The translations under genes and the position numbers were made by a program. The notes beneath the pieces are model-generated. The model saw only the letters and a list, made by a program, of their open reading frames with translations. It ran no database searches and was not told the origin of the DNA. A DNA stretch of 37,246 nucleotides from Spirochaetota bacterium (GTDB lineage Bacteria; Spirochaetota; B62-G9; DRHN01). This document shows, piece by piece, positions 3,973 to 34,889 of the stretch. Within the stretch, counting starts at the first letter, position 1, and every line of letters begins with the position of its first letter. The stretch spans positions 584,339-621,584 of the forward strand of contig CP070841.1 in the NCBI GenBank assembly GCA_020342115.1. The letters run 5' to 3'.

Positions 3973-3989
3973 GATTCCTTACTATCATT

Positions 3990-4463
3990 TTAATAATCTA
4001 ATTTTTCCGAAAACTTGCTGATCTCTTTCATATCATTCTCTGTAATCGAATCGCGTCTTACAATAATCTGTTCCAGCATGGTGCACCTCATATCCTGGGT
4101 GATTCTATCTATCTCGTTGATGGCATTAACAAACAGCGGCTTGACATACCCCTGTTCAAGAGCCATCTTTCTTAATACCCGAATTATCTCCGGATATTTT
4201 ACTTCCTGAGGACACATGACATGACACCTGTAACATTTCACACAGTACCAAATAGCATCTGATCCAAGAACTTCCTCTTTCATTCCAAGTAGAATCATAT
4301 GGATTATTCTTCGCGGGCTGTATTCTGCCGTGACCTCACTCACAGGACATGAAAGAACGCATGTCCCGCACGCAAAACAGCGCATTATGTTCTCCCCGCC
4401 TGGACAACGAGATACTTCATTCTTGAAATCCGGATAAATAGAACCTATTTTTTTCGCATTCAT
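3990..4463 (-). CDS. hdrC: HdrC-like iron-sulfur subunit (second copy)
   Basis: A 157-residue HdrC-type ferredoxin protein. It carries two CxxCxxCxxxC 4Fe-4S motifs: CFACGTCVLSCP at Cys29-Cys39, and CVKCYRCHVMCP about 55 residues further on. Between them lies the EYSPRRIIHMILLGM segment typical of HdrC, which normally precedes the second cluster. HdrC transfers electrons between HdrA and HdrB, but no HdrB lies beside this copy; the neighbours are an FdhB/FrhB-like gene upstream and a tandem HdrA downstream (17 nt gap). It may therefore bridge HdrA and the FdhB-like protein, or share the single HdrB encoded at 12496-13383. It lacks an obvious Shine-Dalgarno, and a 48-nt gap separates it from the previous gene. 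Domain assignment is strong; the partner is inferred. Confidence 0.9.
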   Translation of the reverse strand: MNAKKIGSIYPDFKNEVSRCPGGENIMRCFACGTCVLSCPVSEVTAEYSPRRIIHMILLGMKEEVLGSDAIWYCVKCYRCHVMCPQEVKYPEIIRVLRKMALEQGYVKPLFVNAINEIDRITQDMRCTMLEQIIVRRDSITENDMKEISKFSEKLDY

Positions 4464-4511
4464 AGCATCAACCGATTTTATAATTTTCTCGGGCAGACAT
4501 GTCTCAAATTT

Positions 4512-5624: not shown

Positions 5625-5641
5625 TTTCAGACCTCATACTA

Positions 5642-6076
5642 TTAAATCGCCCACACTGATTTCAGAGGATTGGGGCCCAGTAGCTTCAAATGCGCAACCA
5701 TTTCCTTTACCGTTTCAGCAAAGTAAGCACCTTCACTGGCACTGATCCATCTCAGCCAGACACGTTCAGGCTCCAGACCTGCTTCTTTCAAAGATGTCTT
5801 CAGTATGGCAACACGTCTTCTTGCTTTATAGTTTCCGTTGATATAATGGCAGTCACCAGGATGACATCCCCCTATCAGCACTCCATCAGCCCCTTCCATG
5901 AGAACCTTGATAACGTATGTTGGATCGAGTGCGCCGCTGCACATGAGCCTTATGATCCTGATATTGGATGGGTACTGTATCCTTGAGACACCGGCGAGGT
6001 CGGCGCCTGCATATGTACACCAGTTGCACAGGAATGCTATTATCTTCGGTTCAAAATCTTGGCTTACATTCTCCAT
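5642..6076 (-). CDS. mvhD: MvhD-type hydrogenase/Hdr iron-sulfur subunit (first copy)
   Basis: A 144-residue MvhD/FlpD-family protein with the same motifs as its paralogue at 532-939: FLCNWCTYAGADLAG, LMCSGALDP, IGGCHPGDCHY and ISASEGAYFAE. It should carry a [2Fe-2S] cluster and link HdrA to an electron-donating or -accepting subunit. The frame is open well upstream (to 6211), but that part overlaps the end of the HdrA-GltD gene. I chose the ATG at 6076 because it gives the normal family N-terminus, lies 29 nt after the previous stop and has AGGAAGG about 12 bases before it. Neighbours are the giant HdrA-GltD-HdrA flavoprotein upstream and the FdhB/FrhB-like gene downstream, suggesting the three form one electron-transfer arm. 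Confidence 0.92.
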   Translation of the reverse strand: MENVSQDFEPKIIAFLCNWCTYAGADLAGVSRIQYPSNIRIIRLMCSGALDPTYVIKVLMEGADGVLIGGCHPGDCHYINGNYKARRRVAILKTSLKEAGLEPERVWLRWISASEGAYFAETVKEMVAHLKLLGPNPLKSVWAI

Positions 6077-6105
6077 GAATAATTCATCACCTTCCTCTCT
6101 CACCT

Positions 6106-10521: not shown

Positions 10522-10531
10522 AAAACAATCC

Positions 10532-12499: not shown

Positions 12500-13383
12500 C
12501 CCAGAAGTCCTTTCTCTTTCAAAACAGGCCTCGGATCGATCGAGTGCATGCTGTAATCAGTCGCATCTTCTATCCCGACAAACAGTGCCAGGATCTGACT
12601 GACATACATAACAGGGATTGTTTTGAAACCAGGCACGTTATCGACCAGCGTTCCCTGAGAAGAATCAAGATTAAAATAGCACAGGGGGCAGGAAGTTGTT
12701 ATCATATCGGCTTTATTATTTACAGCTGAATTTATTATTTTCGATGTTCTTGAGATGACAATATCCTTTTTATTAACCGTCTGATAGGAACCGCAGCATT
12801 CGGTTTTAAAGGGAAAATATACATTATCTATACCGCATGCCTGGAAAAGCTCTTCCATTATACCGGGATTTTCCGATGATTCATCAATCGAGATCTCTTC
12901 GGGACGAAGAAGCATACACCCGTAATAAGGAGCCACCTTCAAATCCGATGTTTTTTTTATAATGCCGTCGGCTAATGTCTCAAATCCGATGAACTCCTTC
13001 AAATAATTGAGAAGATGAATAACCCTGACCTCATCACCATTGAAATTTGTTTCTTCGAGATACATGAATTCGTTTATCTTATTGCGCTTCTCTTCATCAT
13101 GAAGCACCAGATCCTGGGCTCTTCGCAGGGTGTTGTAACACATTGAGCAGAGGACCAGAAGCTCCCTTCTGCCCGTCTGCTTTGCACGTAGGAGAGTTCT
13201 TATGGGAGCAAGCTGATTCATCAGGTTATCGGACGCCATTGAGTAGGTAGTGCCGCAACAAAACCAATTCTTGAGTTCTTCAACCTTAACATTGAGCTTG
13301 TACAACAGCTTTAACATTGAGTCCTCGTAATTCCTCCCCGTGGTCTTCAATGTACACCCCGGCATATACGATACGGTTAACAT
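12496..13383 (-). CDS. hdrB: HdrB, heterodisulfide reductase subunit B-like
   Basis: A 295-residue HdrB with two complete CCG domains, the ligands of the paired non-cubane [4Fe-4S] clusters where heterodisulfide reduction occurs in methanogens. Domain 1: Cys10, 31 residues, Cys42-Cys43, 35 residues, CSMC. Domain 2: Cys in YYGCML, 39 residues, Cys-Cys in TECCGSY, 34 residues, CPLC. All expected cysteines are present, so the catalytic subunit appears intact. It is the only HdrB in the window, although two HdrC and three HdrA-type proteins are encoded. AAGGAG lies about 12 bases before the ATG, and the stop overlaps hdrA by four bases. The substrate in this organism is not known; a disulfide or another redox carrier is likely. 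Confidence 0.95.
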   Translation of the reverse strand: MLTVSYMPGCTLKTTGRNYEDSMLKLLYKLNVKVEELKNWFCCGTTYSMASDNLMNQLAPIRTLLRAKQTGRRELLVLCSMCYNTLRRAQDLVLHDEEKRNKINEFMYLEETNFNGDEVRVIHLLNYLKEFIGFETLADGIIKKTSDLKVAPYYGCMLLRPEEISIDESSENPGIMEELFQACGIDNVYFPFKTECCGSYQTVNKKDIVISRTSKIINSAVNNKADMITTSCPLCYFNLDSSQGTLVDNVPGFKTIPVMYVSQILALFVGIEDATDYSMHSIDPRPVLKEKGLLG

Positions 13384-13427
13384 CTAATGCAATAACTCCT
13401 TGTATCGGTTCTGTTATCTCCTGTTCT

Positions 13428-13835
13428 CTAATGAGTGAACTTTCGAAAGTTTGCGATTAGAGCAATCTGTGGCAATGTCTGTAACTCCTCATTAGGAACT
13501 TCGTTCGGATGAACATAGTTCACATTCTTTCTCAGGAAGATCTGTCTCAAAGCTTCCATTATTTTCGATAGATCCACCCCTTTCGGGCACCTCACTGCAC
13601 AGGTAATGCAGGAGGCGCAGATCCAGAGTGTGTTTTTACATAATATTTCCTCGATCTGCCCAAACTGTAAAAGTCTTATGACTTCGTGAGGCGGTATATC
13701 CATGAACTCCGAAGTCGGGCACCCGGCAGTACACTTTCCACACTGATAGCAGGCAAATAGATTCGCACCACTTATTTCTATTATTTTATCAATATCTTCA
13801 TTATCAAGTTCTTCAGATGACAATTGAACATTCAT
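13428..13835 (-). CDS. hdrC: HdrC, heterodisulfide reductase subunit C-like (first copy)
   Basis: A small ferredoxin-like subunit with two CxxCxxCxxxC motifs: CYQCGKCTAGCP, and CASCITCAVRCP about 46 residues later. It connects HdrA and HdrB and is encoded just before hdrB (44 nt), so this is the HdrC of the complete HdrCBA set. An ATG five codons further upstream (13850) is possible, but only the ATG at 13835 has a good ribosome site (AAGGA, seven bases before), giving 135 residues. The segment between the clusters (IPPHEVIRLLQFGQIEEIL) is the usual HdrC linker. The gene follows fumarase beta after a short spacer that contains a curious broken mini-frame. Confidence 0.94.
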   Translation of the reverse strand: MNVQLSSEELDNEDIDKIIEISGANLFACYQCGKCTAGCPTSEFMDIPPHEVIRLLQFGQIEEILCKNTLWICASCITCAVRCPKGVDLSKIMEALRQIFLRKNVNYVHPNEVPNEELQTLPQIALIANFRKFTH

Positions 13836-13861
13836 AAATAAATCCTTCATTTAAAATGAAT

Positions 13862-17765: not shown

Positions 17766-18752
17766 CTATTTATCAAGCAAGCGGAGCAGCTTGTACGCTG
17801 CAGCAGTTGGGGTTATTGTGCCTGCAGTTACCTGATCTGCAATCTCGGGAATAATACCTTGCACGTTTGTATTCCTGTTAAACCGTTCTTTCAGACCTTC
17901 TTCCAATAGCGACCACATCCAGGCAAGAGCTTGCTTCTTGCGTTTTTCCTCCAGCTCACCGCTGGAATTGAGTTTTGCCCTGTGCTGTAAAACGGTTTCC
18001 CACACCTTATCAATGTTCTTCATTTCAAGAGCACTGCATACATGAACAGGGGGAATCCAATGAGCATATGAAGGGCTCAGCAGGTTAAGCAACCTCTCAT
18101 ATACAACTTGAGCCTTTTCAGACTTCTGAACATTTTCACCATCTGCCTTGTTTATTGCAATAGCATCAGCAAGCTCTATGATTCCCCTCTTTATTCCCTG
18201 CATCTCATCTCCGATACCGGCAAGCATGAGAAGGAGAAAAAAATCGACAATATAAGCAACACTTATTTCTGACTGTCCTACACCCACTGTCTCGATAATA
18301 ATTACATCGAAACCTGCAGCTTCACAAATGATCATCGTTTCTCTAGTTTTTCTTGTAACACCTCCCAGGGTTCCCCCTGAAGGCGACGGTCTGATAAATG
18401 CTTTCTTCAAAGAAGAAAGCTTTTCCATCCTTGTCTTGTCCGCCATTATGCTTCCACCGCTTCTTGCACTGCTTGGATCGACTGCAAGAACTGCAACACT
18501 ATGCTCTTTTTTGATGAGGTATAGACCGAGACTCTGTATAAAGGTGCTCTTCCCGACACCGGGAATACCTGTTATCCCCAGCCGAACTGCGTTTCCAGAG
18601 TAAGGAAGAAGCCGATCGACTATATCAAGCGCTAACTCTATATGAGAAGGTTGTGAACTTTCAATTAGGGTAATAGTTTTCGAAAGAATTCTTCTGTCTT
18701 TTGCAAGAACACCCTGAACATAGTATTGAGGATCATCCAGATTCATCTTCAT
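17766..18752 (-). CDS. meaB: MeaB/ArgK-type GTPase chaperone of methylmalonyl-CoA mutase
   Basis: A 328-residue G3E-family P-loop GTPase that protects and reloads the adenosylcobalamin mutase. It shows Walker [19 protein letters not shown], the MeaB-specific [51 protein letters not shown] and the NKADG guanine-recognition motif. The start codon overlaps the stop of the mutase gene (ATGA), so translation is coupled, the usual arrangement for this pair. The older name ArgK reflects an early mis-assignment to arginine transport. A six-base inverted repeat (GCTTGC/GCAAGC) spans the stop codon but has no T-run, so I do not call a terminator. Confidence 0.95.
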
Positions 18753-20872
18753 TTATCAAGAGCATCCATAACCAGGTTTGCAGAATCTATCATTGAAGTT
18801 CCCGGCACGAATACAGCCTTTACTCCTTTACTGTAGAGAAAATCAAAATCACCATGCGGAACTATACCTCCAATTATAACTGTTATATCTGCTCCTCCTT
18901 CCTCCTTGAGAGCATACATTAGTTGTGGGACTAGAGTCTTGTGACCAGCTGCAAGAGTGGACACCCCAACAACATGAACATCGTTTTCAACTGCCATCTT
19001 TGCAACGTCCCCTGGAGTCTGAAACATAGGGCTTATATCCACATCAAAGCCGAAATCTGCAAAAGCTGTGGCAACTACCCTGCTCCCGCGGTCATGACCA
19101 TCCTGGCCCATCTTGGCAACCAGTATCCTCGGGCGCCTTCCCTCTCTCTTCATGAACTCATCGGTTCTCTTTCTGATGGAATCTATCTTTTCCCTGTCTT
19201 TAAACGCCGAGACATACACTCCTGATATACTCTGGGTTGTTGCAGTATATCTGCCAAAAACCTTCTCTAAGGACTGGGTAATCTCCCCAACAGTTGCCCT
19301 TGCCTTCACAGCAGGAATGCACACTTCGAGAAGATTTCCACCGGATTTAGCACAATTGGTAATTGTATCCAGTGCCTTATGAACTGCATCACTGTCACGA
19401 CTCTTTTTTATCTTCTTTAACCTGGCTATCTGCTCCTTTCGGATTTCATCAGATACCTTAAGAATTTCACCTGATGGTTCCTCATCTATCAGGTACTTGT
19501 TTACACCAACAATCGTCTCCTCACCCTGGTCGATTCTCGCCTGTCTCCTGGTTGCTGATTCCTCTATGCATCTCTTGGGCATCCCGGACTCTATAGCCTT
19601 TGCCATACCGCCAAGCTCTTCAACCTCTTCCATGATCTTCTTTGCTTCACGGACAACAGCGCTCGTCAGGGCTTCCACATAGTATGAACCGCCCAGAGGA
19701 TCAACAACTCTGCATATCTGTGATTCTTCCTGGACTATTATCTGAGTGTTTCTCGCAATCCTGGAAGAAAATTCCGTCGGGAGGGCGAGTGCTTCGTTAA
19801 AGGAGTTTGTATGAAGTGATTGAGTGCCTCCTAACACAGCCGAGAGGCACTCCAATGTGGTTCTTATGATATTGTTATATGGATCCTGCTGCGTCAGACT
19901 CCAGCCCGAGGTCTGACAGTGCGTTCTCAACATCATCGATCTGGGGTTCTTTGGACCGAACTTGCTGATTTCATCAGCCCACAGATAACGGGCAGCCCTG
20001 AGCATCGCAATCTCCATAAAGAAGTTCATTCCTATACCAAAAAAGAATGAGAGGCGAGGTGCAAAATCATCGATATCAAGCCTCCTGTCGAGAGCAGCCT
20101 TCACATATTCCAAGCCATCTGCAAGGGTAAATGCAACCTGCTGAACAGAATTGGCCCCGGCCTCCATCATATGGTAGCCGCTTATGCTCACACTGTTGTA
20201 CTTTGGTATATATTTGGCGCAATATTCTATGATATCAGCAACAATTCTCATGGAAGGCTCAGGCGGATAAATGTAGGTGTTCCTTGTGAGGTATTCTTTC
20301 AGAATATCATTCTGTATTGTTCCAGTAAGTTTATCCCGGGACACCCCCTGTTCTTCGGCAGTAACTATATACCCTGCAAGTATGGGAAGCACAGCACCGT
20401 TCATCGTCATCGATACAGACATCTGATCAAGCGGGATCTCATCAAACAGGATCTTCATATCTTCCACAGTATCTACTGCGACACCTGCCTTTCCAACATC
20501 GCCAATGACTCTAGGATGGTCCGAGTCGTAACCTCTGTGAGTTGCAAGGTCAAAAGCTACTGACAGCCCCTTCTGGCCAGCAGCGAGACAACTTCTGTAG
20601 AATGCATTCGACTCCTTTGCTGTTGAAAATCCTGCATATTGACGGATTGTCCAGGGTCTTCCTGCATACATCGTGGCTCTCGGCCCGCGCACAAAGGGAG
20701 AGTATCCTGGCAGAGTGTTTATAGAGTCAAGTCCTTCGAGATCTTCAGCTGTGTAAAGGGGCTTTACTTTTATACCTTCAGCAGTCATCCAGTCAAGCGA
20801 TTCAACCGGTTCTCCCCTGAGCTCTTTAGTTGCAAGCTCTTCCCACTTCTTTTTATCAGGATAATCCGCCAT
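18749..20872 (-). CDS. mcmA: Methylmalonyl-CoA mutase, single-chain (catalytic plus B12 domain)
   Basis: A 707-residue adenosylcobalamin-dependent mutase interconverting (R)-methylmalonyl-CoA and succinyl-CoA. The N-terminal TIM barrel has [39 protein letters not shown] and [12 protein letters not shown]. The C-terminal cobalamin domain has the DxHxxG motif ([10 protein letters not shown]) near residue 590 with the lower-ligand histidine present. Both domains in one chain at near-usual length indicate a complete enzyme. The ATG at 20872 has GGAG six bases upstream; a GTG at 20884 would add four residues but lies in the ribosome site itself. It is followed by meaB with a 4-base overlap and preceded by the epimerase after about 99 nt. 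Confidence 0.96.
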
Positions 20873-20971
20873 AGCAAACTCCACTATACTTAGAGGTCAT
20901 TAAGATTACACATGGGTAGCAAAAATGTTATTGTACGGCCTGTCATCCTCCATAACCAATACTTAAAAAGT

Positions 20972-21373
20972 TTATTTCTCACAAAGCTCGACAAGGACAC
21001 CGCCTGTAGATTTTGGGTGAACAAAGGCTATCTTTGCTCCTCCGGCACCGATTTTCGGTTTCTCATCTATGAGCACGATCCCCTTTTGCTTCATCTCTGT
21101 CAATGCTTCTTCGATGTTTTCGACCTGAAATCCAACATGCTGGATACCCTCACCCCTCCTCTCAAGATACTTAGCTATGGGTCCATCCGGTGAAGTCGAT
21201 TCCAAGCACTCAACCCTACTCTCTCCTACAGGAAATATGGTAACATTCACCTTCTGCTCATCTATATTTTCACATCCACAGGATGTAAGACCAAGAGCGT
21301 TTTCCCAGAAAACATTAGCCTGTGTCATATTTTTTACTGCTATTCCAAGATGATCTATCTTTACAACCTTCAT
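20972..21373 (-). CDS. mce: Methylmalonyl-CoA epimerase
   Basis: A 133-residue member of the vicinal-oxygen-chelate (glyoxalase) superfamily that converts (S)- to (R)-methylmalonyl-CoA. It begins with KIDHLGIAVKNM (metal-binding His), contains GEGIQHVGFQVENIEEAL (second metal His), and ends with IAFVHPKSTGGVLVELCE (metal Glu), the usual pattern. AAGGAG lies seven bases before the ATG. It sits between sucD (16-nt gap) and the mutase gene, which makes the assignment firm compared with other glyoxalase-like proteins. Confidence 0.94.
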   Translation of the reverse strand: MKVVKIDHLGIAVKNMTQANVFWENALGLTSCGCENIDEQKVNVTIFPVGESRVECLESTSPDGPIAKYLERRGEGIQHVGFQVENIEEALTEMKQKGIVLIDEKPKIGAGGAKIAFVHPKSTGGVLVELCEK

Positions 21374-21389
21374 AGAGCACTCCTTCTAA

Positions 21390-22259
21390 CTATTTCATAA
21401 TATCCTTCAGCATCTGAGGCATCTGATCAGGTCTGTCTGCAACCCGAACACCAGCTTCATTAAATGCCTTCACTTTCGCTTCTGCTGTTCCCCTGCCTTC
21501 TGAAATAATTGCACCCGCATGTCCCATTCTCTTACCAGGCGGGGCCGTGCGTCCCGATATGAACACCACAACGGGCTTTTTAATAGAGGCTCTGATGAAC
21601 TCTGCTGCCTGCTCTTCATCTTCGCCTCCTATTTCACCAATGATCACTACTGCGTCGGTTCCGGTATCTTCCTCAAACATCTCCAGCAGTTCAACAAAGC
21701 TGGTTCCAATAATCGGATCTCCCCCTATTCCAATGCATGTTGATTGTCCCATACCGCTCAGTGTGAGATTGTATACAACCTCATAGGTTAAAGTACCGCT
21801 TCTCGATATAACTCCAATACTGCCCGGCTTGTGAATGTGTCCGGGCAAAATACCAACCTTGCTCTTGCCAGGGGAGATAAGACCGGGACAGTTGGGCCCC
21901 ACAAGCCGGGCTCCCTTTTCTCTCACATAATGGTAATTTTCTATCATTTCAAGAACAGGTATTCCTTCTGTGATACATACAATGAGTGCTATTCCGCTAT
22001 CAGCTGCCTCTCTCAGCGCCACTGTGCAAAACCGCGCTGGAACAAAGATGCATGAACAGTTTGCCCCTGTAGCTTCTTTTGCCTCCTCTACCGTGTTAAA
22101 TACAGGAAACCCATGGATCTCCTGCCCACCCTTTTTAGGAGTCACACCGCCAATAACTTTTGTTCCATACTGAAGCATCATTTCTGTATGAAAGGATCCG
22201 TCACGGCCCGTTATTCCCTGAACAATTACCTTCGTATTTTCATCTATTAAAATGCTCAA
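21390..22259 (-). CDS. sucD: Succinate-CoA ligase (ADP/GDP-forming), alpha subunit
   Basis: A 289-residue alpha subunit with the CoA-binding Rossmann fold ([19 protein letters not shown]), the [12 protein letters not shown] motif and the phosphohistidine loop ([19 protein letters not shown]). With SucC it interconverts succinyl-CoA and succinate with substrate-level phosphorylation. Placed directly before the methylmalonyl-CoA epimerase and mutase genes, it probably serves propionate or succinate metabolism rather than a full citric acid cycle. The gap to sucC is 17 nt. Confidence 0.96.
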
Positions 22260-22276
22260 AGCACGTCACCCCAACC

Positions 22277-23407
22277 CTACATATAAGCGACTTTTATGAC
22301 ATTTTTTACGGCATCAGTCAACCCATCGTAGCTGTCAAATCCTTTTGCCCTTAATATATCCCTACCCTCCTTCTGATTTGTTCCAACCAATCGAATAACG
22401 AGAGGTACAGGAATATCGATCTGCTCCATGGTCATCACAATACCGTTGGCTATATCATCACAGCGTGTGATGCCGCCGAATATATTGATAAGAATTGCCT
22501 TTACCTTCTTATTCTTCAAAATGATCTTCAAAGCGTTCAATGTTTTACTCGGGCTTGAGCTTCCACCCACATCCAGAAAATTTGCAGGTTTTCCACCGAG
22601 AAGCTTTATTATATCCATGGTTGCCATTGCAAGCCCTGCGCCATTGACTATACAGCCTATATCGCCATCCAGGTGGACAAAGCTTAAACCTGACTCTCTG
22701 GCATAGATTTCATCCTCACTGTATTCCTCACTGCCCCTCAGCTCCTCTAATTCCTGATGTTTAAAAATCCCATTATCATCAAAAATCATCTTCGCATCAA
22801 CAGCAATGAGCCTGCCACTTCCTGCCAGAACATAGGGATTGATCTCCACAAGAGAGCAGTCCTTTTCTTTAAGGAGTTTATACATATTTATAACCGTAGC
22901 CTCAGCCTGAGGAATCAGTTCCCTGGAAAAAGTTATAGAGAGAAACTTTTTAAGCTCATCTTTATTAATCCCCTCCAGCGGATTGATGTACAGTTTCATT
23001 ATCTTATCAGGTTCTGTAGCTGCAATTTCCTCGATATCTATCCCTCCACTCGAACTCGCTATGCATACAACTTTCTTTGCGGTTCTGTCAACGGTGATGC
23101 TCAGATAGTATTCCTTCTGGATATCAACCGCTTCGCTTACCAAAACCTTCTCTACAGGAATACCCTTGATTCGCATTGACAGTATTTCCTGTGCTTTTGT
23201 AAAGGCCTCCTGGGGAGATACTGCAAGCTTTATCCCTCCAGCTTTACCCCTGCCTCCTACAAGCACCTGCGCCTTTACCACAACAGTAGAGCCAAGTTCA
23301 CTGGCAGCATTTCGAGCGTCCTGTGGGTTATCTGCAACTTTGCCTTTTGTCACAGGTATACCATACTCATCGAGCAACGCTCTTGCCTGGTATTCATAGA
23401 TCTTCAT
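22277..23407 (-). CDS. sucC: Succinate-CoA ligase (ADP/GDP-forming), beta subunit
   Basis: A 376-residue beta subunit with an ATP-grasp domain (MKIYEYQARALLDEYGIPV at the start, VVVKAQVLVGGRGKAGGIKL, VEINPYVLAGSGRLIAVDAKM) and the C-terminal ligase domain (GLAMATMDIIKLLGGKPANF, INIFGGITRCDDIANGI). I chose the ATG at 23407, which starts in the usual SucC manner and has GGGGTGG nine bases before it; an ATG at 23416 sits directly on that site. First gene of the sucCD-mce-mcmA-meaB unit. Confidence 0.96.
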   Translation of the reverse strand: MKIYEYQARALLDEYGIPVTKGKVADNPQDARNAASELGSTVVVKAQVLVGGRGKAGGIKLAVSPQEAFTKAQEILSMRIKGIPVEKVLVSEAVDIQKEYYLSITVDRTAKKVVCIASSSGGIDIEEIAATEPDKIMKLYINPLEGINKDELKKFLSITFSRELIPQAEATVINMYKLLKEKDCSLVEINPYVLAGSGRLIAVDAKMIFDDNGIFKHQELEELRGSEEYSEDEIYARESGLSFVHLDGDIGCIVNGAGLAMATMDIIKLLGGKPANFLDVGGSSSPSKTLNALKIILKNKKVKAILINIFGGITRCDDIANGIVMTMEQIDIPVPLVIRLVGTNQKEGRDILRAKGFDSYDGLTDAVKNVIKVAYM

Positions 23408-23436
23408 CTTATTCATCCACCCCGTCTTTATAGTAT

Positions 23437-26520: not shown

Positions 26521-27924
26521 ATGGCTGAAGATCCAAAAATCGCTGCTAAATATATTACAGGATTGGTGGAGCGTGCCCGAAAAGCTCAAGCAAAGATCGA
26601 GTTTGCTACTCAGGAAATGGTAGATGGTATGGCCACAAGAATCGCATGGTCAGGGGTTCGTCCTGATTTTGCTACGAGTTATACTAAATTCTGTGAAGAA
26701 GAGATCAGGATGGGTTACCAGCCCCACAAATACGCCAAGCTCATGACCAAGGTAAAAGGCGCTCTGCGGGATATGAAGGGAAAGAAATCAGTAGGTATAG
26801 TTGAGCATGATAAAGAGAAGGGCATCATCAAGATTGCCAAGCCGATGGGGGTTGTTGGCGCCCTGATCCCGGTTACAAATGGCGAAGCGACACCATTTGT
26901 AAAAGCCATCTGCGCCATAAAAACCCGAAATGCAATAATCATGGCCCCTCATCCACGAGCCCAGAAGACCAATAACATGGCAACTGCTCAGATGCGCAAA
27001 ACCCTTAAGAAACACAACTGGCCTGAGGATCTTATAATAGGTATAGAAGATATTTCGGTGGAAAGAAGTAAAGAGCTTATGAGTCAGTGCGATATAATTG
27101 TTGCCACAGGAGGCGCAGGCATGGTGCGGGCAGCCTTCTCGAGCGGTACCCCCAGCCAGGGCGTAGGCGCCGGAAACTCAGTCTGCATCGTTGATGAAAC
27201 CGCTGACCTGAAAGACGCAGCAGACAAGATCATGCGCTCCAAGACCTTCGACTATGCCACAAGCTGCTCTACAGAAAATTCAGTCATCATACAGGAAGAT
27301 GTATACAACAAGATGATCAAGGAGCTGGAAGCAGTAGGAGGTTATCTGGTCAATCAGGAGGAAAAAAAGAAGCTTCAGGCTACCATGTGGGATCCTGAAA
27401 AAGGAATCCTGAATAGAGATATCGTGGCACAGCCGGCAGAGAAGATCGCAAAGCTTGCCAAAATCAACCTTCCAAAGGGCAAGACCTTTATCATGATACC
27501 TGAAACAGGTGTGGGCAAGGGCTATCCATTTTCAGGTGAAAAACTTTCCGTAACAGCCACTATTTACAAATGGAAGACCTTTGATGATGCCATAGACCTT
27601 GTGAACAGAATCACTTCATTTTCAGGCCCGGGACATTCATGCGGCATTCATACATTCGACGAGATGCGCATACGAGAGCTCTCGCACAAGGTAAGGGTCA
27701 GCCGGATCATGATTCGCCAGCCCCAGTGTCTTGCCAACAGCGGGGCCTGGACAAACGGTATGCCTATGTCAATGTCCCTTGGATGCGGCTCCTGGGGAGG
27801 CAATAGCACCACGTCCAACATTACGTGGGAACATATGCTGAACTACACATGGGTATCATACCCTATTCCGAGCACTCAGCCCACAGACGAGGAGCTGTTC
27901 GGCACTATCATGGATGAGGATTGA
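26521..27924 (+). CDS. CoA-acylating aldehyde dehydrogenase, SauS-like
   Basis: A 467-residue aldehyde dehydrogenase of the CoA-acylating branch (relatives: AdhE N-domain, EutE/PduP, SucD-type succinate semialdehyde dehydrogenase, sulfoacetaldehyde dehydrogenase SauS). The catalytic cysteine is Cys249 in FDYATSCSTENS. Upstream are PMGVVGALIPVTNGEATPF, MAPHPRAQKT and ATGGAGMVRAAF, which fit CoA-dependent rather than hydrolytic members. The run SGAWTNGMPMSMSLGCGSWGGNS near residue 410 is typical of this branch. It would interconvert an aldehyde and its acyl-CoA with NAD(P). Overall impression is closest to SauS-type enzymes, but the substrate is not fixed by sequence; the downstream pyrimidine/beta-alanine genes suggest malonate semialdehyde or another short semialdehyde as candidates. 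It seems to be a single-gene unit with its own promoter. Confidence 0.82.
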   Translation: MAEDPKIAAKYITGLVERARKAQAKIEFATQEMVDGMATRIAWSGVRPDFATSYTKFCEEEIRMGYQPHKYAKLMTKVKGALRDMKGKKSVGIVEHDKEKGIIKIAKPMGVVGALIPVTNGEATPFVKAICAIKTRNAIIMAPHPRAQKTNNMATAQMRKTLKKHNWPEDLIIGIEDISVERSKELMSQCDIIVATGGAGMVRAAFSSGTPSQGVGAGNSVCIVDETADLKDAADKIMRSKTFDYATSCSTENSVIIQEDVYNKMIKELEAVGGYLVNQEEKKKLQATMWDPEKGILNRDIVAQPAEKIAKLAKINLPKGKTFIMIPETGVGKGYPFSGEKLSVTATIYKWKTFDDAIDLVNRITSFSGPGHSCGIHTFDEMRIRELSHKVRVSRIMIRQPQCLANSGAWTNGMPMSMSLGCGSWGGNSTTSNITWEHMLNYTWVSYPIPSTQPTDEELFGTIMDED

Positions 27925-28166: not shown

Positions 28167-28227
28167 AACGTTATTATCCGATCGATACCATCAAAAATCG
28201 AGTGCCTGTGATTAGCATAGTAATAAA

Positions 28228-28259
28228 TTAGTTCTCGGTGCTATTTCACCAAGAACTAA
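28228..28259. repeat. 32-bp palindromic element, copy A (upstream of preT promoter)
   Basis: The arms TTAGTTCTCGGTG and CACCAAGAACTAA flank a six-base loop; 12 of 13 positions pair. It ends nine bases before the preT -35 box. A diverged copy lies at 33462-33493 before the aminotransferase gene, and the outer arms are identical in both. It has no following T-run, so it is not a simple terminator. It could be an operator for a shared regulator or an RNA hairpin. Confidence 0.6.
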
Positions 28260-28268
28260 TAAACTACC

Positions 28269-28298
28269 TTGAAATGCACTTCCAATTTATATTATAAT
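28269..28298 (+). promoter_or_regulatory. Promoter of the preT-preA pyrimidine degradation genes
   Basis: TTGAAA (28269-28274), an 18-bp spacer and a perfect TATAAT (28293-28298). The transcript would carry a leader of about 115 bases before preT. Confidence 0.55.
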
Positions 28299-28419: not shown

Positions 28420-29718
28420 ATGGAACCCTGTTTTACACCTGACCAGGCTTATGCAGAAGCAGGCCGATGCCTGCTTTGCTTCGATGCTCCCTGTAGCAAA
28501 GGGTGCCCCGCAGGTACCGATCCCGGCACTTTTATCAGAAAATTGAGATTACGGAATATTAAGGGTGCAATAGCAACTGTTAAGAACAATAACATTTTGG
28601 GAGGAATCTGCGGCATATTATGTCCTGTATCGGGTTTGTGTGAAAAAGAGTGTGCAGCGACACCTATTGACAGGCCTATCCAGATTGGCAGGGTACAAAG
28701 ATTCTTGATCGAGCACGGAAGAAAGTTGAAGTTTAACCCGTTGGAAAAAAAGGAGCCGAATAATATAAATATAGCTATCATTGGTTGCGGTCCTTCCGGA
28801 CTCAGCTGTGCTGCCGAGCTCGCTAAAGAGGGTTTTTCAGTTGATATATTTGAAAAGAAACCAAAACCGGGCGGCGTGATGCGATATTTAATTCCTGACC
28901 ACCGTCTAAGTAAAGAGTTCTTAAATGAAGAATTAAAGGACATAAGCTCTCTTGGTGTGAACATCAGGTATAAATCTCCTGTGGAATCTGGAGAAGAATT
29001 GGAGAAATTATTAAAGGAGGGATATAGAGCCGTATATATTGCAACAGGAACCTGGGGAATGAAGAGCCTTGGATTAGCATCCGTTTATAAAGGCTTTTAT
29101 AATGCTAAAGAATTTCTTGAAAAATGTAAATCCACTGAAAAACCTGATATGAAAAAGATAATTTCCGGCAAGAGAGTGTGCGTTATCGGCGGCGGTGACA
29201 CTGCTATCGATGCAGCAGAATCAGCTCTAATATTAGATGCTAAAGACGTCTCTATTGTATATAGAAGATCTTTTGCCCAGATGCCCGGCGATGAAAACGG
29301 AAAGATAGAGGCTTTAAAATCAGGAATAAATTTCCTCATTTTAACACAGCCTGTAAAATATTTAACCAATGGCGGAAGGATAACCGGTATCGAAGCAGTA
29401 AGAAATAAACTGGGAACTTCTGATACTTCAGGAAGACCCCGACCTGTACCTATAAGTGGCTCGAGTCATATTATCAGTACAGATATTATTATAGAAGCAA
29501 TAGGTTTTGGGCCGGAGGATGACAGCAAAATGCTGTTTGAAAAATTTAAATTGTCAGAAAAAGGACTTATCCTTGTTGATGAAAAAACAGGTACAACTAG
29601 CAAAAAAAGCTTCTACGCAGGGGGAGATATAACCAGGGGTCCTTCCCTCATCCCTGAAGCTGTTGCAGATGGCAAAAGAGCAGCCAAAGCAATATTGGAA
29701 GATATGGAGTTATCATAG
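28420..29718 (+). CDS. preT: Dihydropyrimidine dehydrogenase, NAD(P)-binding subunit (PreT-like)
   Basis: A 432-residue flavoprotein of the GltD family, the FAD/NAD(P)H subunit of bacterial dihydropyrimidine dehydrogenase that reduces uracil and thymine to dihydropyrimidines. The N-terminal Fe-S domain has RCLLCFDAPCSKGCPAG and GICGILCPVSGLCEKEC. The FAD motif is AIIGCGPSGLSCAAELA, followed by KPGGVMRYLIPDHRL, the nucleotide fold VIGGGDTAIDAAESAL, VYRRSFAQMPG and the C-terminal FAD segment YAGGDITRGPSLIPEAV. The stop codon is immediately followed by the preA start, so the subunits are probably made in equal amounts. The ribosome site is weak. In isolation it could be a glutamate synthase small subunit, but the PreA partner settles the call. 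Confidence 0.92.
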   Translation: MEPCFTPDQAYAEAGRCLLCFDAPCSKGCPAGTDPGTFIRKLRLRNIKGAIATVKNNNILGGICGILCPVSGLCEKECAATPIDRPIQIGRVQRFLIEHGRKLKFNPLEKKEPNNINIAIIGCGPSGLSCAAELAKEGFSVDIFEKKPKPGGVMRYLIPDHRLSKEFLNEELKDISSLGVNIRYKSPVESGEELEKLLKEGYRAVYIATGTWGMKSLGLASVYKGFYNAKEFLEKCKSTEKPDMKKIISGKRVCVIGGGDTAIDAAESALILDAKDVSIVYRRSFAQMPGDENGKIEALKSGINFLILTQPVKYLTNGGRITGIEAVRNKLGTSDTSGRPRPVPISGSSHIISTDIIIEAIGFGPEDDSKMLFEKFKLSEKGLILVDEKTGTTSKKSFYAGGDITRGPSLIPEAVADGKRAAKAILEDMELS

Positions 29719-30966
29719 ATGGCTAAGCTACTGGATTTGAGTATAGATTTTTGTGATGTGAAATTCCCCAACCCTGTTTTACTGTCTTCATCCCCTGTTT
29801 CAAATACAGCCGAGATGATTGGAAGAGCATTTGAATACGGATTTGGCGGAGTTGCATATAAAACCTTGGGTTTTGATAATATAAAGATTATACACCCATC
29901 TCCGAGAATGGCAGGATACACATACGGTAGTAATAATCTAATCGGTCTTCAAAATGTTGAACAAATAACTGACAGACCGTTACAAGATAATCTCATGGAT
30001 ATTGAATACCTTAAGAAACATTGGTCAAATCATGTTGTCATAGCAAGCATAATGGGATTCAGTGAAGAGGAATGGATCGAGCTCGCAAAGATGGCAGCAG
30101 GCTCTGGTGCAGACATACTCGAACTCAACTTTTCCTGCCCGCACATGACTGTAGAGGGCTCAGGTATGAAGGTAGGTCAATCTTTTGGACTGATAGAAAA
30201 GTTTACAAGTACCGTAAGGAATGTAGTGGACATTCCTATCCTCGCCAAGATGACACCTAATATTACAGATATAACCGAACCTGCATTATCTGCCAAAAAA
30301 GGAGGGGCAGACGGCTTGACTGCCATAAACACTGTAAGGGCTCTCACTGAAATAGGACTCGATGATAATGTCCCAAAACCCAATGTTGCCGGTATCGGTG
30401 CAATGAGCGGGTATTCCGGACCCGCGATAAAACCCATTGGTTTGCGGTGTGTTACGGAACTGGCTCAGTGTACCGATTTGAATTTACCGATTGCCGGCTG
30501 CGGAGGTATAGAAACATGGGTGGATACGACCGAATACCTACTCTGCGGCGCATCTCTGGTTCAGATTACAACCGGTGTTGTTCATTACGGATACAGGATC
30601 GTTGAAGATATACTTGAGGGTCTTTCTTATTACATGGAGGAAAAGGGATTTAAATCAATATCAGAAATAGTTGGCAAAGCTCTCCCAAATATACAGCCAA
30701 CAGATCGTTTTGATCTTTCAAGGCAGGGAGTAGGAGAATATGATCTGGATAGATGCGTGGGGTGCGGACAGTGCTATATCGTGTGTCAGGACGCTGGAGG
30801 GCAGTGTATAGACTGGGATTATGATAAGAGAAGACCTGTCCATGATGAAGAAAAATGCCTGGGTTGTATGATATGCTCCTTCATCTGTCCTGTATCGGAT
30901 CCTCCTTTGATTTCTTACAGGGAAGTAAAAAACAAAAAATCTGTAATTCCACCAGTATCGGAGTAG
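29719..30966 (+). CDS. preA: Dihydropyrimidine dehydrogenase, catalytic subunit (PreA-like)
   Basis: A 415-residue FMN barrel fused to a ferredoxin domain, catalysing pyrimidine-base reduction. The dihydroorotate-dehydrogenase-like barrel has NPVLLSSSPVSNTAEM, GGVAYKTLGFD, the active-site cysteine in LNFSCPHM, LAKMTPNITDI, and AIKPIGLRCVTELA with GCGGIETWVD. The C-terminal part has two 4Fe-4S motifs, CVGCGQCYIVC and CLGCMICSFICP, which relay electrons from PreT. Length and layout fit PreA from E. coli-type two-subunit enzymes. It starts at the base after the preT stop and is followed by the beta-ureidopropionase-type gene after 32 nt. Confidence 0.94.
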   Translation: MAKLLDLSIDFCDVKFPNPVLLSSSPVSNTAEMIGRAFEYGFGGVAYKTLGFDNIKIIHPSPRMAGYTYGSNNLIGLQNVEQITDRPLQDNLMDIEYLKKHWSNHVVIASIMGFSEEEWIELAKMAAGSGADILELNFSCPHMTVEGSGMKVGQSFGLIEKFTSTVRNVVDIPILAKMTPNITDITEPALSAKKGGADGLTAINTVRALTEIGLDDNVPKPNVAGIGAMSGYSGPAIKPIGLRCVTELAQCTDLNLPIAGCGGIETWVDTTEYLLCGASLVQITTGVVHYGYRIVEDILEGLSYYMEEKGFKSISEIVGKALPNIQPTDRFDLSRQGVGEYDLDRCVGCGQCYIVCQDAGGQCIDWDYDKRRPVHDEEKCLGCMICSFICPVSDPPLISYREVKNKKSVIPPVSE

Positions 30967-30998
30967 ACAGACAATTTTTAAAGAAAGGAAATGAATGT

Positions 30999-31910
30999 AT
31001 GACTGACAGGATCGTTAAAGGCGGTTTAATACAGGCATCTAATGTGATTGCTCCTGCTGAAGATACATCAAAAATGTCGAAAAAGGAAATACAGAGTGAA
31101 ATCGAAAAAATCAAAGAAGCTATGCTTGAAAAACATAAAAAACTGACTGAAAAAGCTGCAGGGCTTGGTGTTCAAATCCTCTGCTATCAGGAACTATTCA
31201 ACCTCCCCTATTTTCCTGCAGAGCATAACCAGAGGTGGTATGCCGCTGCTGAACCGATTCCAGGACCAACTATCGACGAAGTGGCAAAATGGGCCAAAAA
31301 ATACTCAATGGTAATTATAGCACCTGTCTATGAATATGCCATGGATGGCGTCTTCTATAATACGGCAGCGGTTATTGATGCAGATGGGAAGCTTCTCGGT
31401 ATAACCACAAAGATGCATATACCCTATGTCCATCCCGGATTTTACGAGAAGTTTTATTTCAAGCCGGGAAATACAGACTATCCTGTATTCAAGACAGCTT
31501 ATGCAAAAGTCGCACCTTATATCTGCTATGACAGGCATTTTCCTGACGGAGCAAGGATATTGGGGCTCCATGGAGCAGAAATAATGTTTAACCCTTCTGC
31601 AACAACAGCCGGTCTATCCAGACATCTATGGGAGCTGGAGCAGCCGGCTCATGCTGTGGCTAACGGGTATTTTGTTGGAGCTATTAATCGTGTAGGTACT
31701 GAAAACCCGTGGAATACAGGGCGTTTTTACGGATCATCCTACTTCTGCAATCCAAAAGGTAAAATTATTGCCCAGGGCTCAGAAGATAAGGATGAGGTGG
31801 TAACTGCTGATTTGAACATGGAAGAAATATACGAGATCAGAAACACGTGGGCGTTTTATAGGGACAGAAGACCTGAGACTTATGGTGATATTACCAAATT
31901 AATACCTTGA
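30999..31910 (+). CDS. Beta-ureidopropionase-type amidohydrolase (nitrilase superfamily)
   Basis: A 303-residue carbon-nitrogen hydrolase that would cleave N-carbamoyl-beta-alanine to beta-alanine, CO2 and ammonia, the third step of reductive pyrimidine degradation. The nitrilase triad is present: Glu65 in CYQELFNLPYF, Lys in TTKMHIPYVHPGF and Cys in PYICYDRHFPDGARIL. The insert YEKFYFKPGN matches beta-ureidopropionase and N-carbamoylputrescine amidase relatives; context favours the former. I chose the ATG at 30999, with AAAGGAA eight bases before it; the frame extends upstream but over the end of preA. It follows preA closely and is probably co-transcribed. Confidence 0.9.
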   Translation: MTDRIVKGGLIQASNVIAPAEDTSKMSKKEIQSEIEKIKEAMLEKHKKLTEKAAGLGVQILCYQELFNLPYFPAEHNQRWYAAAEPIPGPTIDEVAKWAKKYSMVIIAPVYEYAMDGVFYNTAAVIDADGKLLGITTKMHIPYVHPGFYEKFYFKPGNTDYPVFKTAYAKVAPYICYDRHFPDGARILGLHGAEIMFNPSATTAGLSRHLWELEQPAHAVANGYFVGAINRVGTENPWNTGRFYGSSYFCNPKGKIIAQGSEDKDEVVTADLNMEEIYEIRNTWAFYRDRRPETYGDITKLIP

Positions 31911-32060: not shown

Positions 32061-33437
32061 ATGGATCTGATTATTAAAAATGCAAAAATCATAAACACTG
32101 ATAAAACATATACTGCAGATATTGGCATTCAAAATGAAAAAATCAAGAGAATACAAAAAAATTTAAAACCTGATACTGCTGAAATAATTGATGCAAAAGG
32201 GAAGTATGTTTTTCCAGGGGGAATCGATGCGCATGTTCATCTCAATCTTTTCTTTTGCGATACCTATTCGGAAAACTGGGACACCGGAACGCAGGCTGCA
32301 GCCTGCGGAGGTTTGACCACAATAATCGATTTTGCGATTCAAACCAAAGGAAAAACCATAAAAGAGGCTGTTGAGGAAAGGAAAAAAGATGCAGAACAGA
32401 AGGCCTGTGTGGACTATTCTCTTCATGGAGGTATAACTGACTGGAATGAAACTACAAGGAAAGAGTTGAATTACTATGTGTCAAACGGTATCCCCTCTTT
32501 TAAAATGTTTATGATTTATAGAAAACGGGGCTTCATGTCAGATGATGGGATGCTCTTCCAGGCCCTGGAAGAAACAAAAAGGAACGGCGGAATCATTATG
32601 GTTCATGCTGAAAGCACATTTGTCCTGGATATGCTCATTGAGCGATATCATCCTCAGACCAAAAAACTTGGTGCATGGGGCCATGCCCTTTCCAGGCCCT
32701 GTTTTACCGAATACGAAGCCATCCAGAGGGCTATTACATGGACTGAGGTAACAGGTGGCAGGCTTTACATTGTGCATATGTCTACCGGAGAAGGGGCGGA
32801 TATAGTAAAAGCCGCCCAGATGAGAGGTGTTAAGGTTTGGGCTGAAACATGTCCGCAGTATCTGCTTTTGACTGACACTGTATTTAAAAAGAAGGATGGG
32901 CACCTCTATGCTACATGTCCGCAGATCAAAAAACAGCACGATCAGGACAGACTGTGGCAAAGTGTAATAGGAGGCGAGGTAAAGATATTAGCAACAGATA
33001 CCTGCACCTTCACCAAAGCGCAGAAAGATTTGTGGAAAGGAGACTTCACAAAGATTCCGTATGGACTGCCGGGCATGGAAACACTTGTCCCTGTAATGCA
33101 CACTGCTGCTGTTGGACAGAGAAAAATATCTTTGAACAAATTCGTGGCCCTCACTTCTACAAACCCGGCAAAACTATTCGGGCTTTATCCAAAGAAAGGC
33201 ACAATTGCTGAAGGAAGCGATGCTGATATTGTTATATTTGATCCGAACAAAAAAATAACCATAGATCATAAAAAACTTGCAACAAATTGCGACTGGTCGC
33301 CGTATCAGGGAATGAAGCTCTTAGGCTACCCAGAGGTTACCATATCTCGCGGAGAGATTATTGCCAAAGATGGTAAATATGTTGGAAAAGCCGGCAGGGG
33401 GAAATTTATACCAAGAAAACCAGGGGGTACAATTTAG
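32061..33437 (+). CDS. hydA: Dihydropyrimidinase (D-hydantoinase family)
   Basis: A 458-residue amidohydrolase that opens dihydrouracil or dihydrothymine to N-carbamoyl-beta-amino acids, the second step of the pathway. Metal-site residues are all visible: His58 and His60 (GGIDAHVHLNLF), the lysine to be carboxylated, Lys148 (PSFKMFMIY), His182 (MVHAES), His239 (YIVHMSTGEG) and Asp313 (ILATDTCTF). The C-terminal SDADIVIFDPNKKITI segment is typical. AGAGG lies before the ATG. It probably belongs to the preTA transcription unit despite the 150-bp spacer, which may hold a structured leader. An allantoinase or other hydantoinase activity is possible, but the neighbours favour dihydropyrimidinase. 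Confidence 0.93.
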   Translation: MDLIIKNAKIINTDKTYTADIGIQNEKIKRIQKNLKPDTAEIIDAKGKYVFPGGIDAHVHLNLFFCDTYSENWDTGTQAAACGGLTTIIDFAIQTKGKTIKEAVEERKKDAEQKACVDYSLHGGITDWNETTRKELNYYVSNGIPSFKMFMIYRKRGFMSDDGMLFQALEETKRNGGIIMVHAESTFVLDMLIERYHPQTKKLGAWGHALSRPCFTEYEAIQRAITWTEVTGGRLYIVHMSTGEGADIVKAAQMRGVKVWAETCPQYLLLTDTVFKKKDGHLYATCPQIKKQHDQDRLWQSVIGGEVKILATDTCTFTKAQKDLWKGDFTKIPYGLPGMETLVPVMHTAAVGQRKISLNKFVALTSTNPAKLFGLYPKKGTIAEGSDADIVIFDPNKKITIDHKKLATNCDWSPYQGMKLLGYPEVTISRGEIIAKDGKYVGKAGRGKFIPRKPGGTI

Positions 33438-33578: not shown

Positions 33579-34889
33579 ATGTTCGAAAACATAAATCCTA
33601 AAGATCTTGAGGACGGAAGGAAATACCTCATGTCTGGCTCAGTAGGAGGCGGCCTTCCCATAATCATAGACAGCGGAAAGGGTGCTGTTGTGACGGATAT
33701 TAAAGGTAAGGAATATATAGACTGTACTTCACAGGCTTGGACCTTCAATATAGGAGTGGCTCATCCTAGGGTTAAAGAAGCAGCTAAGGAACAGATCGAT
33801 AAGATAACACACGTAAGAACAAGCTTTGAGACTGTACCAAAGCTTCTTCTTTTAAAAAAGCTCGGTGAGATTGCACCAAAGAATTTAAAAAAGATCAGCT
33901 TCTGCCTACACGGCTCCTTAGCGAACGAATCCGCAATGAAGCTTGCCATAACAAACAATCCTGAGGGTATGAAGTTTCTCACTCCATTTGAAAACTATTC
34001 GGGTCGAACTCTTGCGACAATTGCAGCCAGCTGGTCTTACCATCCTATCAGCAAGTTATTTGCACCATACATGGAACATGTGGTAAGGATCCCAAATGCC
34101 TATTGCTATAGATGCCCATTCGATGCGGAATACCCTGAATGCGGGATACTTTGTGCAGAATATGTGAAAACTATGATTGAGAGGGGTCTCGAACCTGTAA
34201 TTGCAATAATCATGGAGCCTATGCAGGCCAGTGGAGGAATGATAGAGTATCCGGAAGAATACCTGAAAAGAATTCGCAAGATATGTGACGAGTTCGGAAT
34301 TTTGCTTATATTTGATGAGATCCAGACCGCCTTTGGCAGACTAGGTGTAATGTTTGCAAGTGAACTTTACGATGTATATCCTGATATACTCGTATTCGGA
34401 AAAGCGATCGCAGGCGGATTCCCACTTGCAGGGGTAATGCAGAGGAATGATCTTAAACCACCACAGCCGGCAACAGATTCATTCACATTTGCTCATTTCC
34501 CGGTCTCATTTGCAGCAGCATGTGCCACACTGGATGTGATAAAGGAAGAAAACCTCCTAGAGAAAGCCGTAAAGATGGGCAAATATTTCACTTCAAGGCT
34601 GAAAGAGCTTCAAAAAAAATATGAAATTATCGGCGACATACGTGGGCCCGGGTTGATGATAGGCATTGAGCTTGTAAAAGATAAAAAAACTAAAGAAATA
34701 GCAAATGACATAACCCATAATATTGTAAAAGAAGCTGTCAAACATGGAGTTATCTTTGGGGAGAGCAAGTTCAAGGGTTTGGGGAATGTACTCAAGATAA
34801 AACCACCGCTTGTAATATCAGAATCACAGGCAGACAGGGTGCTTGAGGTGTTTGAAAAGCTTATTAAGAAATACTCCGATAAATCATAG
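33579..34889 (+). CDS. Class III aminotransferase, probable beta-alanine aminotransferase
   Basis: A 436-residue PLP-dependent fold-type I transaminase. The PLP-binding lysine is Lys275 (VFGKAIAGGFPLAGV) and the pyridine-nitrogen aspartate is Asp246 (LIFDEIQTAFGRLG). A cysteine-rich stretch YCYRCPFDAEYPECGILC lies near residue 176, a pattern found in several omega-amino acid transaminases. Following the genes that make beta-alanine, it most likely transfers the amino group from beta-alanine (or 3-aminoisobutyrate from thymine) to an oxo acid, producing malonate semialdehyde. GABA or another omega-amino acid is an alternative. AAAGGGG precedes the ATG. It may have its own promoter, with the shared palindrome upstream. 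Confidence 0.85.
   Translation: MFENINPKDLEDGRKYLMSGSVGGGLPIIIDSGKGAVVTDIKGKEYIDCTSQAWTFNIGVAHPRVKEAAKEQIDKITHVRTSFETVPKLLLLKKLGEIAPKNLKKISFCLHGSLANESAMKLAITNNPEGMKFLTPFENYSGRTLATIAASWSYHPISKLFAPYMEHVVRIPNAYCYRCPFDAEYPECGILCAEYVKTMIERGLEPVIAIIMEPMQASGGMIEYPEEYLKRIRKICDEFGILLIFDEIQTAFGRLGVMFASELYDVYPDILVFGKAIAGGFPLAGVMQRNDLKPPQPATDSFTFAHFPVSFAAACATLDVIKEENLLEKAVKMGKYFTSRLKELQKKYEIIGDIRGPGLMIGIELVKDKKTKEIANDITHNIVKEAVKHGVIFGESKFKGLGNVLKIKPPLVISESQADRVLEVFEKLIKKYSDKS

Follow-up and report, generated by a model that had tools for sequence, protein, structure and literature searches.

Which substrate is used by the aldehyde dehydrogenase encoded at positions 26521 to 27924 of the window (the whole stretch of DNA analyzed here, 37,246 nucleotides), given that it lies beside genes for reductive pyrimidine degradation in a genome in which we found no methylmalonate-semialdehyde dehydrogenase (MMSDH)?

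The dehydrogenase and its active site

The gene is an open reading frame on the forward strand that starts with ATG, has a ribosome-binding sequence (GGAAGGAG) just 5', and encodes a protein of 467 amino acids, referred to here as P0001. The top NCBIfam model for P0001 is SauS (NF047625) at 509 bits, which is below the curated cut-off of 600 bits, followed by AdhE and EutE-type models. Among PDB sequences, the closest solved structure is that of the C. kluyveri succinyl-CoA reductase SucD (8CEI/8CEJ, 36% identity), with AdhE second, and the AlphaFold model of P0001 (mean pLDDT 91.6) matches SucD at a TM-score of 0.92-0.95. The catalytic cysteine and histidine, the fold, and the alignment all fit a full-length CoA-acylating aldehyde dehydrogenase of the AdhE/EutE/SucD/SauS branch. 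The preliminary description of this locus had placed the gene product in that branch, and NCBIfam, the nearest solved structures, and the predicted fold agree; at the level of sequence and predicted structure, the reading frame is confirmed as real and its product as a CoA-acylating aldehyde dehydrogenase. The closest named homologue is from a Spirochaetes MAG (L080, 76% identity), on which basis we take the host to be a spirochaete, and a search of viral contigs found no relatives.

In SucD, the distal carboxylate is bound by Lys70 and Ser243 while the chemistry is carried out by Cys242 and His364 (PMC10249356). The gene and the corresponding codons are as follows:

26521..27924, forward strand: predicted malonate semialdehyde dehydrogenase (malonyl-CoA forming), a CoA-acylating aldehyde dehydrogenase of 467 aa (open reading frame, NCBIfam, PDB, AlphaFold, tree, and context)
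26749..26751, forward strand: Lys77 codon, aligned with SucD Lys70, the distal carboxylate binder (alignment; PMC10249356)
27265..27267, forward strand: Cys249 codon, the catalytic cysteine (SucD Cys242), followed by Ser250 (SucD Ser243) (alignment; PMC10249356)
27634..27636, forward strand: His372 codon (SucD His364, which donates a proton to the CoA that is released) (alignment; PMC10249356)
27748..27750, forward strand: Trp410 codon, a clade-marking position (alignment)

SucD residues Lys66, Lys70, Thr112, Cys242, Ser243, and His364 are all kept in P0001 (as Lys73, Lys77, Thr119, Cys249, Ser250, and His372), and AdhE carries alanine at the Lys70 position. P0001 differs from SucD at Ser373 and Cys403 (Thr365 and Thr395 in SucD) as well as in gene context.

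Surroundings of the gene in the window and the genome

The P0001 gene lies 495 bp ahead of a complete reductive pyrimidine (pyd) operon on the same strand. Features of the window that bear on the role of P0001 are the following:

17766..23416, reverse strand: methylmalonyl-CoA mutase operon (MeaB, MCM, epimerase, SucD, SucC; family matches), a speculative sink for a thymine branch
28227..28260, no strand assigned: 14-bp hairpin in the gap between the P0001 gene and the pyd operon (pattern match)
28269..28298, forward strand: promoter-like site 5' of the pyd operon, TTGAAA-18-TATAAT, 11/12 (consensus match only)
28420..29718, forward strand: PydA1/PreT-like NAD(P)H:FAD subunit of dihydropyrimidine dehydrogenase (GltD/YgfK/PreT-type family)
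29719..30966, forward strand: PydA2/PreA subunit of dihydropyrimidine dehydrogenase (494 bits against a cut-off of 335)
30855..31910, forward strand: PydC-like carbamoyl amidohydrolase of the nitrilase family, its reading frame overlapping the PydA2 end (family and position)
32061..33437, forward strand: PydB dihydropyrimidinase (484 bits against a cut-off of 393)
33579..34889, forward strand: class III aminotransferase, putative beta-alanine aminotransferase PydD (family and position)

The reductive pyrimidine set is therefore complete in the window (PydA, PydB, PydC, and the aminotransferase, the last two by family and position only), and the aminotransferase is nearest to racemase/GABA-type enzymes. 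The preliminary description had set the dehydrogenase beside pyrimidine degradation, which holds for adjacency and for the completeness of the operon but probably does not extend to co-transcription. Since the hairpin and the promoter-like site (pattern matches only) sit in the 495-bp gap, the P0001 gene probably forms a transcription unit of its own, and a single transcript spanning it and the pyd operon is unlikely. On the other side of the gene, HdrA/HdrB/HdrC- and FrhB-like genes, fumarase, and malic enzyme (positions 955-13850, reverse strand) adjoin the mutase operon, an array that resembles those of propionate-metabolising syntrophs.

We searched the genome (G000; 3.53 Mb, single contig) family by family. 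P0001 is the sole aldehyde dehydrogenase of the window, as had been noted before, and elsewhere in the genome there are only three further aldehyde-dehydrogenase-type genes: a P5C dehydrogenase type (L001), ProA (L003), and a PduP-like gene (L026) that adjoins DeoC/RpiB/TPI. The absence of MMSDH/IolA (TIGR01722), first remarked on for the window, extends to all of G000, where the top match is the P5C dehydrogenase at 117 bits against a cut-off of 448.5; TIGR01722 is not among the 22 families that P0001 matched at E 0.001. With all groups taken together, MMSDH was under its cut-off in 16 of the 19 genomes tested.

Gene neighborhoods of homologues

About 110 homologues were gathered with their surroundings and labelled by neighboring genes. 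In Anaerovirgula multivorans, a homologue with 58% identity to P0001 (L083) is part of a complete iol operon with the order IolG, transporter genes, IolG, IolC, SauS-like gene, IolJ, IolB, IolD, and IolE, in which IolC and IolD score above their NCBIfam cut-offs and the SauS-like gene takes IolA's place between IolC and IolJ. The product of IolJ is malonate semialdehyde, and no MMSDH was found in the 5.4-Mb genome (best E 2e-4). Judged from the gene content of this operon, which lacks IolA, malonate semialdehyde would be the only plausible substrate of the dehydrogenase. A homologue 84% identical to L083, from a Clostridia MAG (L084), has a class III aminotransferase directly 3', and its genome contains PydA2 and PydB. 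Malonate semialdehyde is the intermediate shared by inositol and beta-alanine breakdown, and both the inositol context of the former and the aminotransferase and pyd genes of the latter point to it.

A link to pyrimidines recurs in genome G374, where the homologue (L054, 65% identity to P0001) lies divergent from an NCS2-type nucleobase permease. Downstream come an aminotransferase, after 76 bp, and PydA1/A2, at +6-7 kb, and on the other side a Na+-type decarboxylase operon (CT-gamma-biotin carrier-beta) is found at -3 to -6 kb. The permease, a protein of the xanthine/uracil type that scores under the xanthine permease cut-off, may have uracil as its substrate. A second SauS-like copy in G374 (48%) lies about 16 kb from IolD on the same contig. 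A single family takes in the aminotransferases adjoining L054, L084, and L112 (59-65% identity to one another); the one beside L126 matches the same reference at 62%, and, judged from the aminotransferase next to L054, the family resembles taurine:2-oxoglutarate aminotransferase. Genes for sulfonate metabolism (SauT, SauCD, Xsc) were found neither in the window nor beside close relatives. Since taurine also fits the aminotransferase context, it is the inositol operon of L083 that tips the balance to malonate semialdehyde.

Downstream of three further homologues (L055, L056, and L080, with 59, 57, and 76% identity to P0001), a carboxyltransferase gene starts after 90, 2, and 69 bp, respectively. 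Just 5' of the dehydrogenase in L055 and L056 is a transaldolase, that of L055 being of a more distant type (33%), and IolD lies 9.4 kb downstream in L056 (genome G361). In an Anaerolineae MAG, a more distant member (L111) is the last gene after IolB-transaldolase-IolD-IolE-IolG, and neither IolC nor IolJ was seen at that locus. There (L111, 4095-11374), and also at L056, L059, L093, and L097, the transaldolase takes the place of IolC and IolJ in the inositol operon, which hints at a transaldolase-based form of inositol catabolism that releases malonate semialdehyde and bypasses the kinase step. The nearest whole-genome relative with the gene, G002 (74%), has it back to back with a transaldolase and shows no IolD and no convincing PydA2. 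G000 holds an 84% orthologue of this transaldolase, away from the P0001 gene; because of this orthologue and the adjacency in G002, some malonate semialdehyde may come from a transaldolase route in G000 as well. Altogether, G000 has five diverse transaldolase-family genes (L161, L162, L163, L164, and L165), some of them beside methyltransferase- and corrinoid-protein-like genes.

About 18 loci from marine Gammaproteobacteria and sphingomonads pair the SauS-like gene with an acyl-CoA dehydrogenase, and most of them add enoyl-CoA hydratase, 3-hydroxyisobutyryl-CoA hydrolase, and 3-hydroxyisobutyrate dehydrogenase (families checked at L103). By gene content, these are apparently valine operons with a SauS-branch gene, about 50% identical to P0001, in MmsA's place, which implies that the product of their dehydrogenase is methylmalonyl-CoA rather than propionyl-CoA. 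Among these loci (L087, L091, L103, L107, and about 14 more), some have a divergent AraC-type regulator. The denominator that the neighborhoods share would be malonate semialdehyde, with the methyl homologue taking its place in the valine operons.

Clades, rival readings, and the fate of the product

A maximum-likelihood tree was built with care from 68 rows; in it SucD, a single sequence on a long branch, served as the outgroup and as such falls outside all SauS-like clades, and one AdhE outgroup (L009) was left out of later trees. Enzymes encoded beside SauT/SauU/SauCD/Xsc form a SAU clade (support 100/99), those beside SauCD, transketolase halves, and an RpiB-like isomerase (SqwGH/SqwI/SqwKL-like neighbors) form an SQW clade (99/100), and the valine-operon enzymes form a third (100/100). 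P0001 falls in none of these and, as far as gene-context labels show, in no clade of another known substrate; placement in such a clade is what the preliminary description had said would refute its reading. Its own clade (97/95) has 10 rows: P0001, L080, G002/L021, G374/L054, L081, G223/L055, G361/L056, L062, L112, and L126. When the five closest members are constrained to group with the SAU clade, the tree becomes worse by 42 log-likelihood units (AU p 0.035, a modest value, with the groups picked post hoc, after the tree was seen). For monophyly of the window clade and the iol enzyme L083, the test gives neither backing nor rejection (AU p 0.27). A Chloroflexi-rich subgroup with transaldolase or aminotransferase neighbors is a separate clade (100/99); its context is therefore either ancestral or of repeated origin, and we take it as supporting context, not as evidence of window-clade membership.

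Position 410 is Trp across the window clade and in L083/L084, Phe in 15 of 15 sulfonate-context (SAU/SQW) enzymes, Leu or Ile in the valine-operon enzymes, and Tyr or Trp in the Chloroflexi clade. The window and valine clades largely have Glu122, Asn151, and Asn362 in common, which the sulfonate clades lack. Position 410 tracks clade as well as substrate and is a marker, not proof.

Other groups in the collection have contexts of their own. L085 was tried as a sulfonate enzyme on account of Xsc-Pta upstream but was counted as valine, given a full valine operon downstream and its place in the valine clade. A SauS-like clade from many clostridia and proteobacteria (L128, L131, L133, L136, L141, L144, L145, L148, and L152-L154) lies beside a thiamine-diphosphate enzyme with 27-29% identity to Xsc, often with an HMG-CoA-lyase-like gene near. 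In G001, G006, and G148 (L022:2080-5451, L023:568-3920, and L071:8631-12105), two adjacent half-size citrate-synthase-like genes are directly 5' of the SauS-like gene, with a HAD phosphatase next in two of the three.

We consider it probable that P0001 is a non-decarboxylating, CoA-acylating malonate semialdehyde dehydrogenase whose product, malonyl-CoA, is then decarboxylated by a biotin-dependent complex of the Na+-pump type. In the scheme that we infer for substrate, product, direction, and coupling, uracil would be converted by the pyd enzymes to beta-alanine and by transamination to malonate semialdehyde, which would form a thiohemiacetal with Cys249 while Lys77 and Ser250 hold its distal carboxylate. 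Hydride would pass to NAD(P)+ and CoA would then free malonyl-CoA, so that malonate semialdehyde, CoA, and NAD(P)+ would give malonyl-CoA with the CO2 kept. A complex of CT alpha, gamma, biotin carrier, and beta subunits would turn malonyl-CoA into acetyl-CoA, possibly with export of Na+, and the energy lost in the classical MmsA/IolA reaction would be saved. The likely substrate, malonate semialdehyde, and the likely product, malonyl-CoA, were both raised in the preliminary description and gain support from the L083 iol operon, L084, L054, the carboxyltransferase neighbors, the iol genes near L111 and L056, the 16 of 19 genomes with MMSDH under its cut-off, the decarboxylase operon of G000, and the kept SucD residues. 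Weighing against them are the improbable co-transcription with pyd, the lack of IolD and of a convincing PydA2 in G002, the taurine-type aminotransferases near relatives, the racemase/GABA-type affinity of the window's own aminotransferase, and the AU p of 0.27 for monophyly with L083.

P0001 could instead be a true sulfoacetaldehyde dehydrogenase (SauS/SqwD) that makes sulfoacetyl-CoA from sulfoacetaldehyde, of which taurine would be one source, as its top NCBIfam model and the taurine-type aminotransferases by L054, L084, L112, and L126 would allow. We regard this as unlikely, since 509 bits fall short of the 600-bit cut-off, the SAU (100/99) and SQW (99/100) clades leave P0001 out (a modest, post hoc AU p of 0.035 for union with SAU), all 15 sulfonate-context enzymes have Phe410 rather than Trp, and no sulfonate genes were seen beside P0001 or its close relatives. 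The cut-off, the tree, the gene context, and position 410 led us to reject SauS identity, and the earlier label "SauS-like" stands as the name of a branch but not of a function. There is a similarly small chance that the chemistry is the one we favor and the substrate comes mainly from the cleavage of a C6 keto-acid (e.g., 5-keto-2-deoxygluconate) by a transaldolase, the pyd neighbor being there by chance. The back-to-back arrangement in G002, the 84% orthologue in G000, and the transaldolases adjoining the gene in L056, L058/L059, L093, L097, and L111 (within an inositol operon in the last; more distant in L055, at 33%) agree with such a supply, whereas G000 is without IolD and has its transaldolase away from the P0001 gene, beside which the pyd operon lies.

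It is quite improbable that P0001 also or mainly turns methylmalonate semialdehyde from thymine into methylmalonyl-CoA for the mutase operon, a route that the preliminary description had put forward. The mutase genes are 3 kb off, and the fold apparently takes a methyl group, given the related enzymes (about 50% identity) that replace MmsA in valine operons, but their clade is distinct (100/100) with Leu or Ile instead of Trp at position 410, and no close relative of P0001 was seen beside mutase genes in the neighborhoods inspected; for P0001 itself, only the proximity of the mutase operon favors this route. Acylating dehydrogenases are reversible, and SucD, the nearest solved enzyme, acts as a reductase. 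That P0001 runs in the opposite direction, reducing malonyl-CoA (or succinyl-CoA) to supply malonate semialdehyde/beta-alanine or succinate semialdehyde, is nevertheless very improbable, since its relatives belong to operons for catabolism (iol, val, pyd), we noticed no 4-hydroxybutyrate genes near the P0001 gene, and G000 is without the biotin carboxylase for usual malonyl-CoA synthesis.

Returning to malonyl-CoA as the predicted product, G000 has one carboxyltransferase gene, inside a complete CT-gamma-biotin carrier-beta operon at C1:189619 (L160; CT 7536-9080, gamma 9163-9459, a biotin carrier with an EAMKM motif, and beta 9899-11026). Our search of G000 turned up no biotin carboxylase, and the complex can therefore decarboxylate but not fix CO2 by itself in the usual way. 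Its CT subunit resembles both propionyl-CoA carboxylase beta and methylmalonyl-CoA decarboxylase alpha, and methylmalonyl-CoA from the mutase operon would therefore be an equally good substrate; the gene neighbors in relatives point to malonyl-CoA as a candidate substrate. On gene content, the biotin-dependent Na+-pump-type decarboxylase appears to be a better-supported exit for the product than the mutase operon. In G000, FabD is present while AccA, AccD, and biotin carboxylase were not found, and in G374 AccA and biotin carboxylase were not found. That malonyl-CoA made by P0001 also feeds fatty acid synthesis, with pyrimidine or beta-alanine salvage standing in for acetyl-CoA carboxylase, seems improbable to us.

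Compared with known systems, P0001 has the fold, the catalytic Cys/His/Lys, and the CoA-acylating chemistry of SauS (NF047625; Cupriavidus-type, L151) at 40% identity, but it scores under the cut-off, lies outside the SAU clade without SauT/SauU/Xsc neighbors, and has Trp410 instead of Phe. SqwD/SauS with the ADP-forming ligase SqwKL/SauCD (the sulfo-TK variant, reviewed in PMC12890257) is of the same family at about 44-47% identity and occurs in spirochaetes too; however, its clade comes with transketolase halves, an RpiB-like isomerase, and SauCD, none of which is near the P0001 gene. Methylmalonyl-CoA/glutaconyl-CoA-type Na+-pumping decarboxylases share CT alpha, gamma, biotin carrier, and OAD-beta with G000 and with the genes beside L054, although in G000 the proposed substrate is malonyl-CoA made by the dehydrogenase. 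MmsA/IolA (TIGR01722, ALDH6) would act at the step and on the substrate proposed for P0001 but belongs to another branch of the superfamily, and it releases acetyl- or propionyl-CoA and CO2, not (methyl)malonyl-CoA. In the known Pyd clusters of PMC7332683 (Figure 1 legend), the upstream pathway is the one encoded in the window, with PydA/B/C, an aminotransferase (PydD), and then a malonic semialdehyde enzyme, and the ends named are reduction (PydE) or a malonic semialdehyde dehydrogenase (MSDH); at that step the window has an acylating enzyme of the SauS branch, for which malonyl-CoA is the expected product. In the open literature that we searched, no characterized enzyme of the window clade and no such enzyme was described; the branch is known, and the assigned function is new as far as that literature goes.

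If our reading is true, a recurrent misannotation as SauS would be removed, and a non-decarboxylating alternative to MmsA/IolA would exist that seemingly recurs in pyrimidine, inositol, and valine catabolism, with the possible wider consequence that SauS-branch enzymes recurrently replace MmsA/IolA. Uracil or inositol could then supply malonyl-CoA directly. The loss of CO2 would move to a biotin-dependent, possibly Na+-pumping decarboxylase, which would let anaerobes conserve energy where the classical step is regarded as wasteful.
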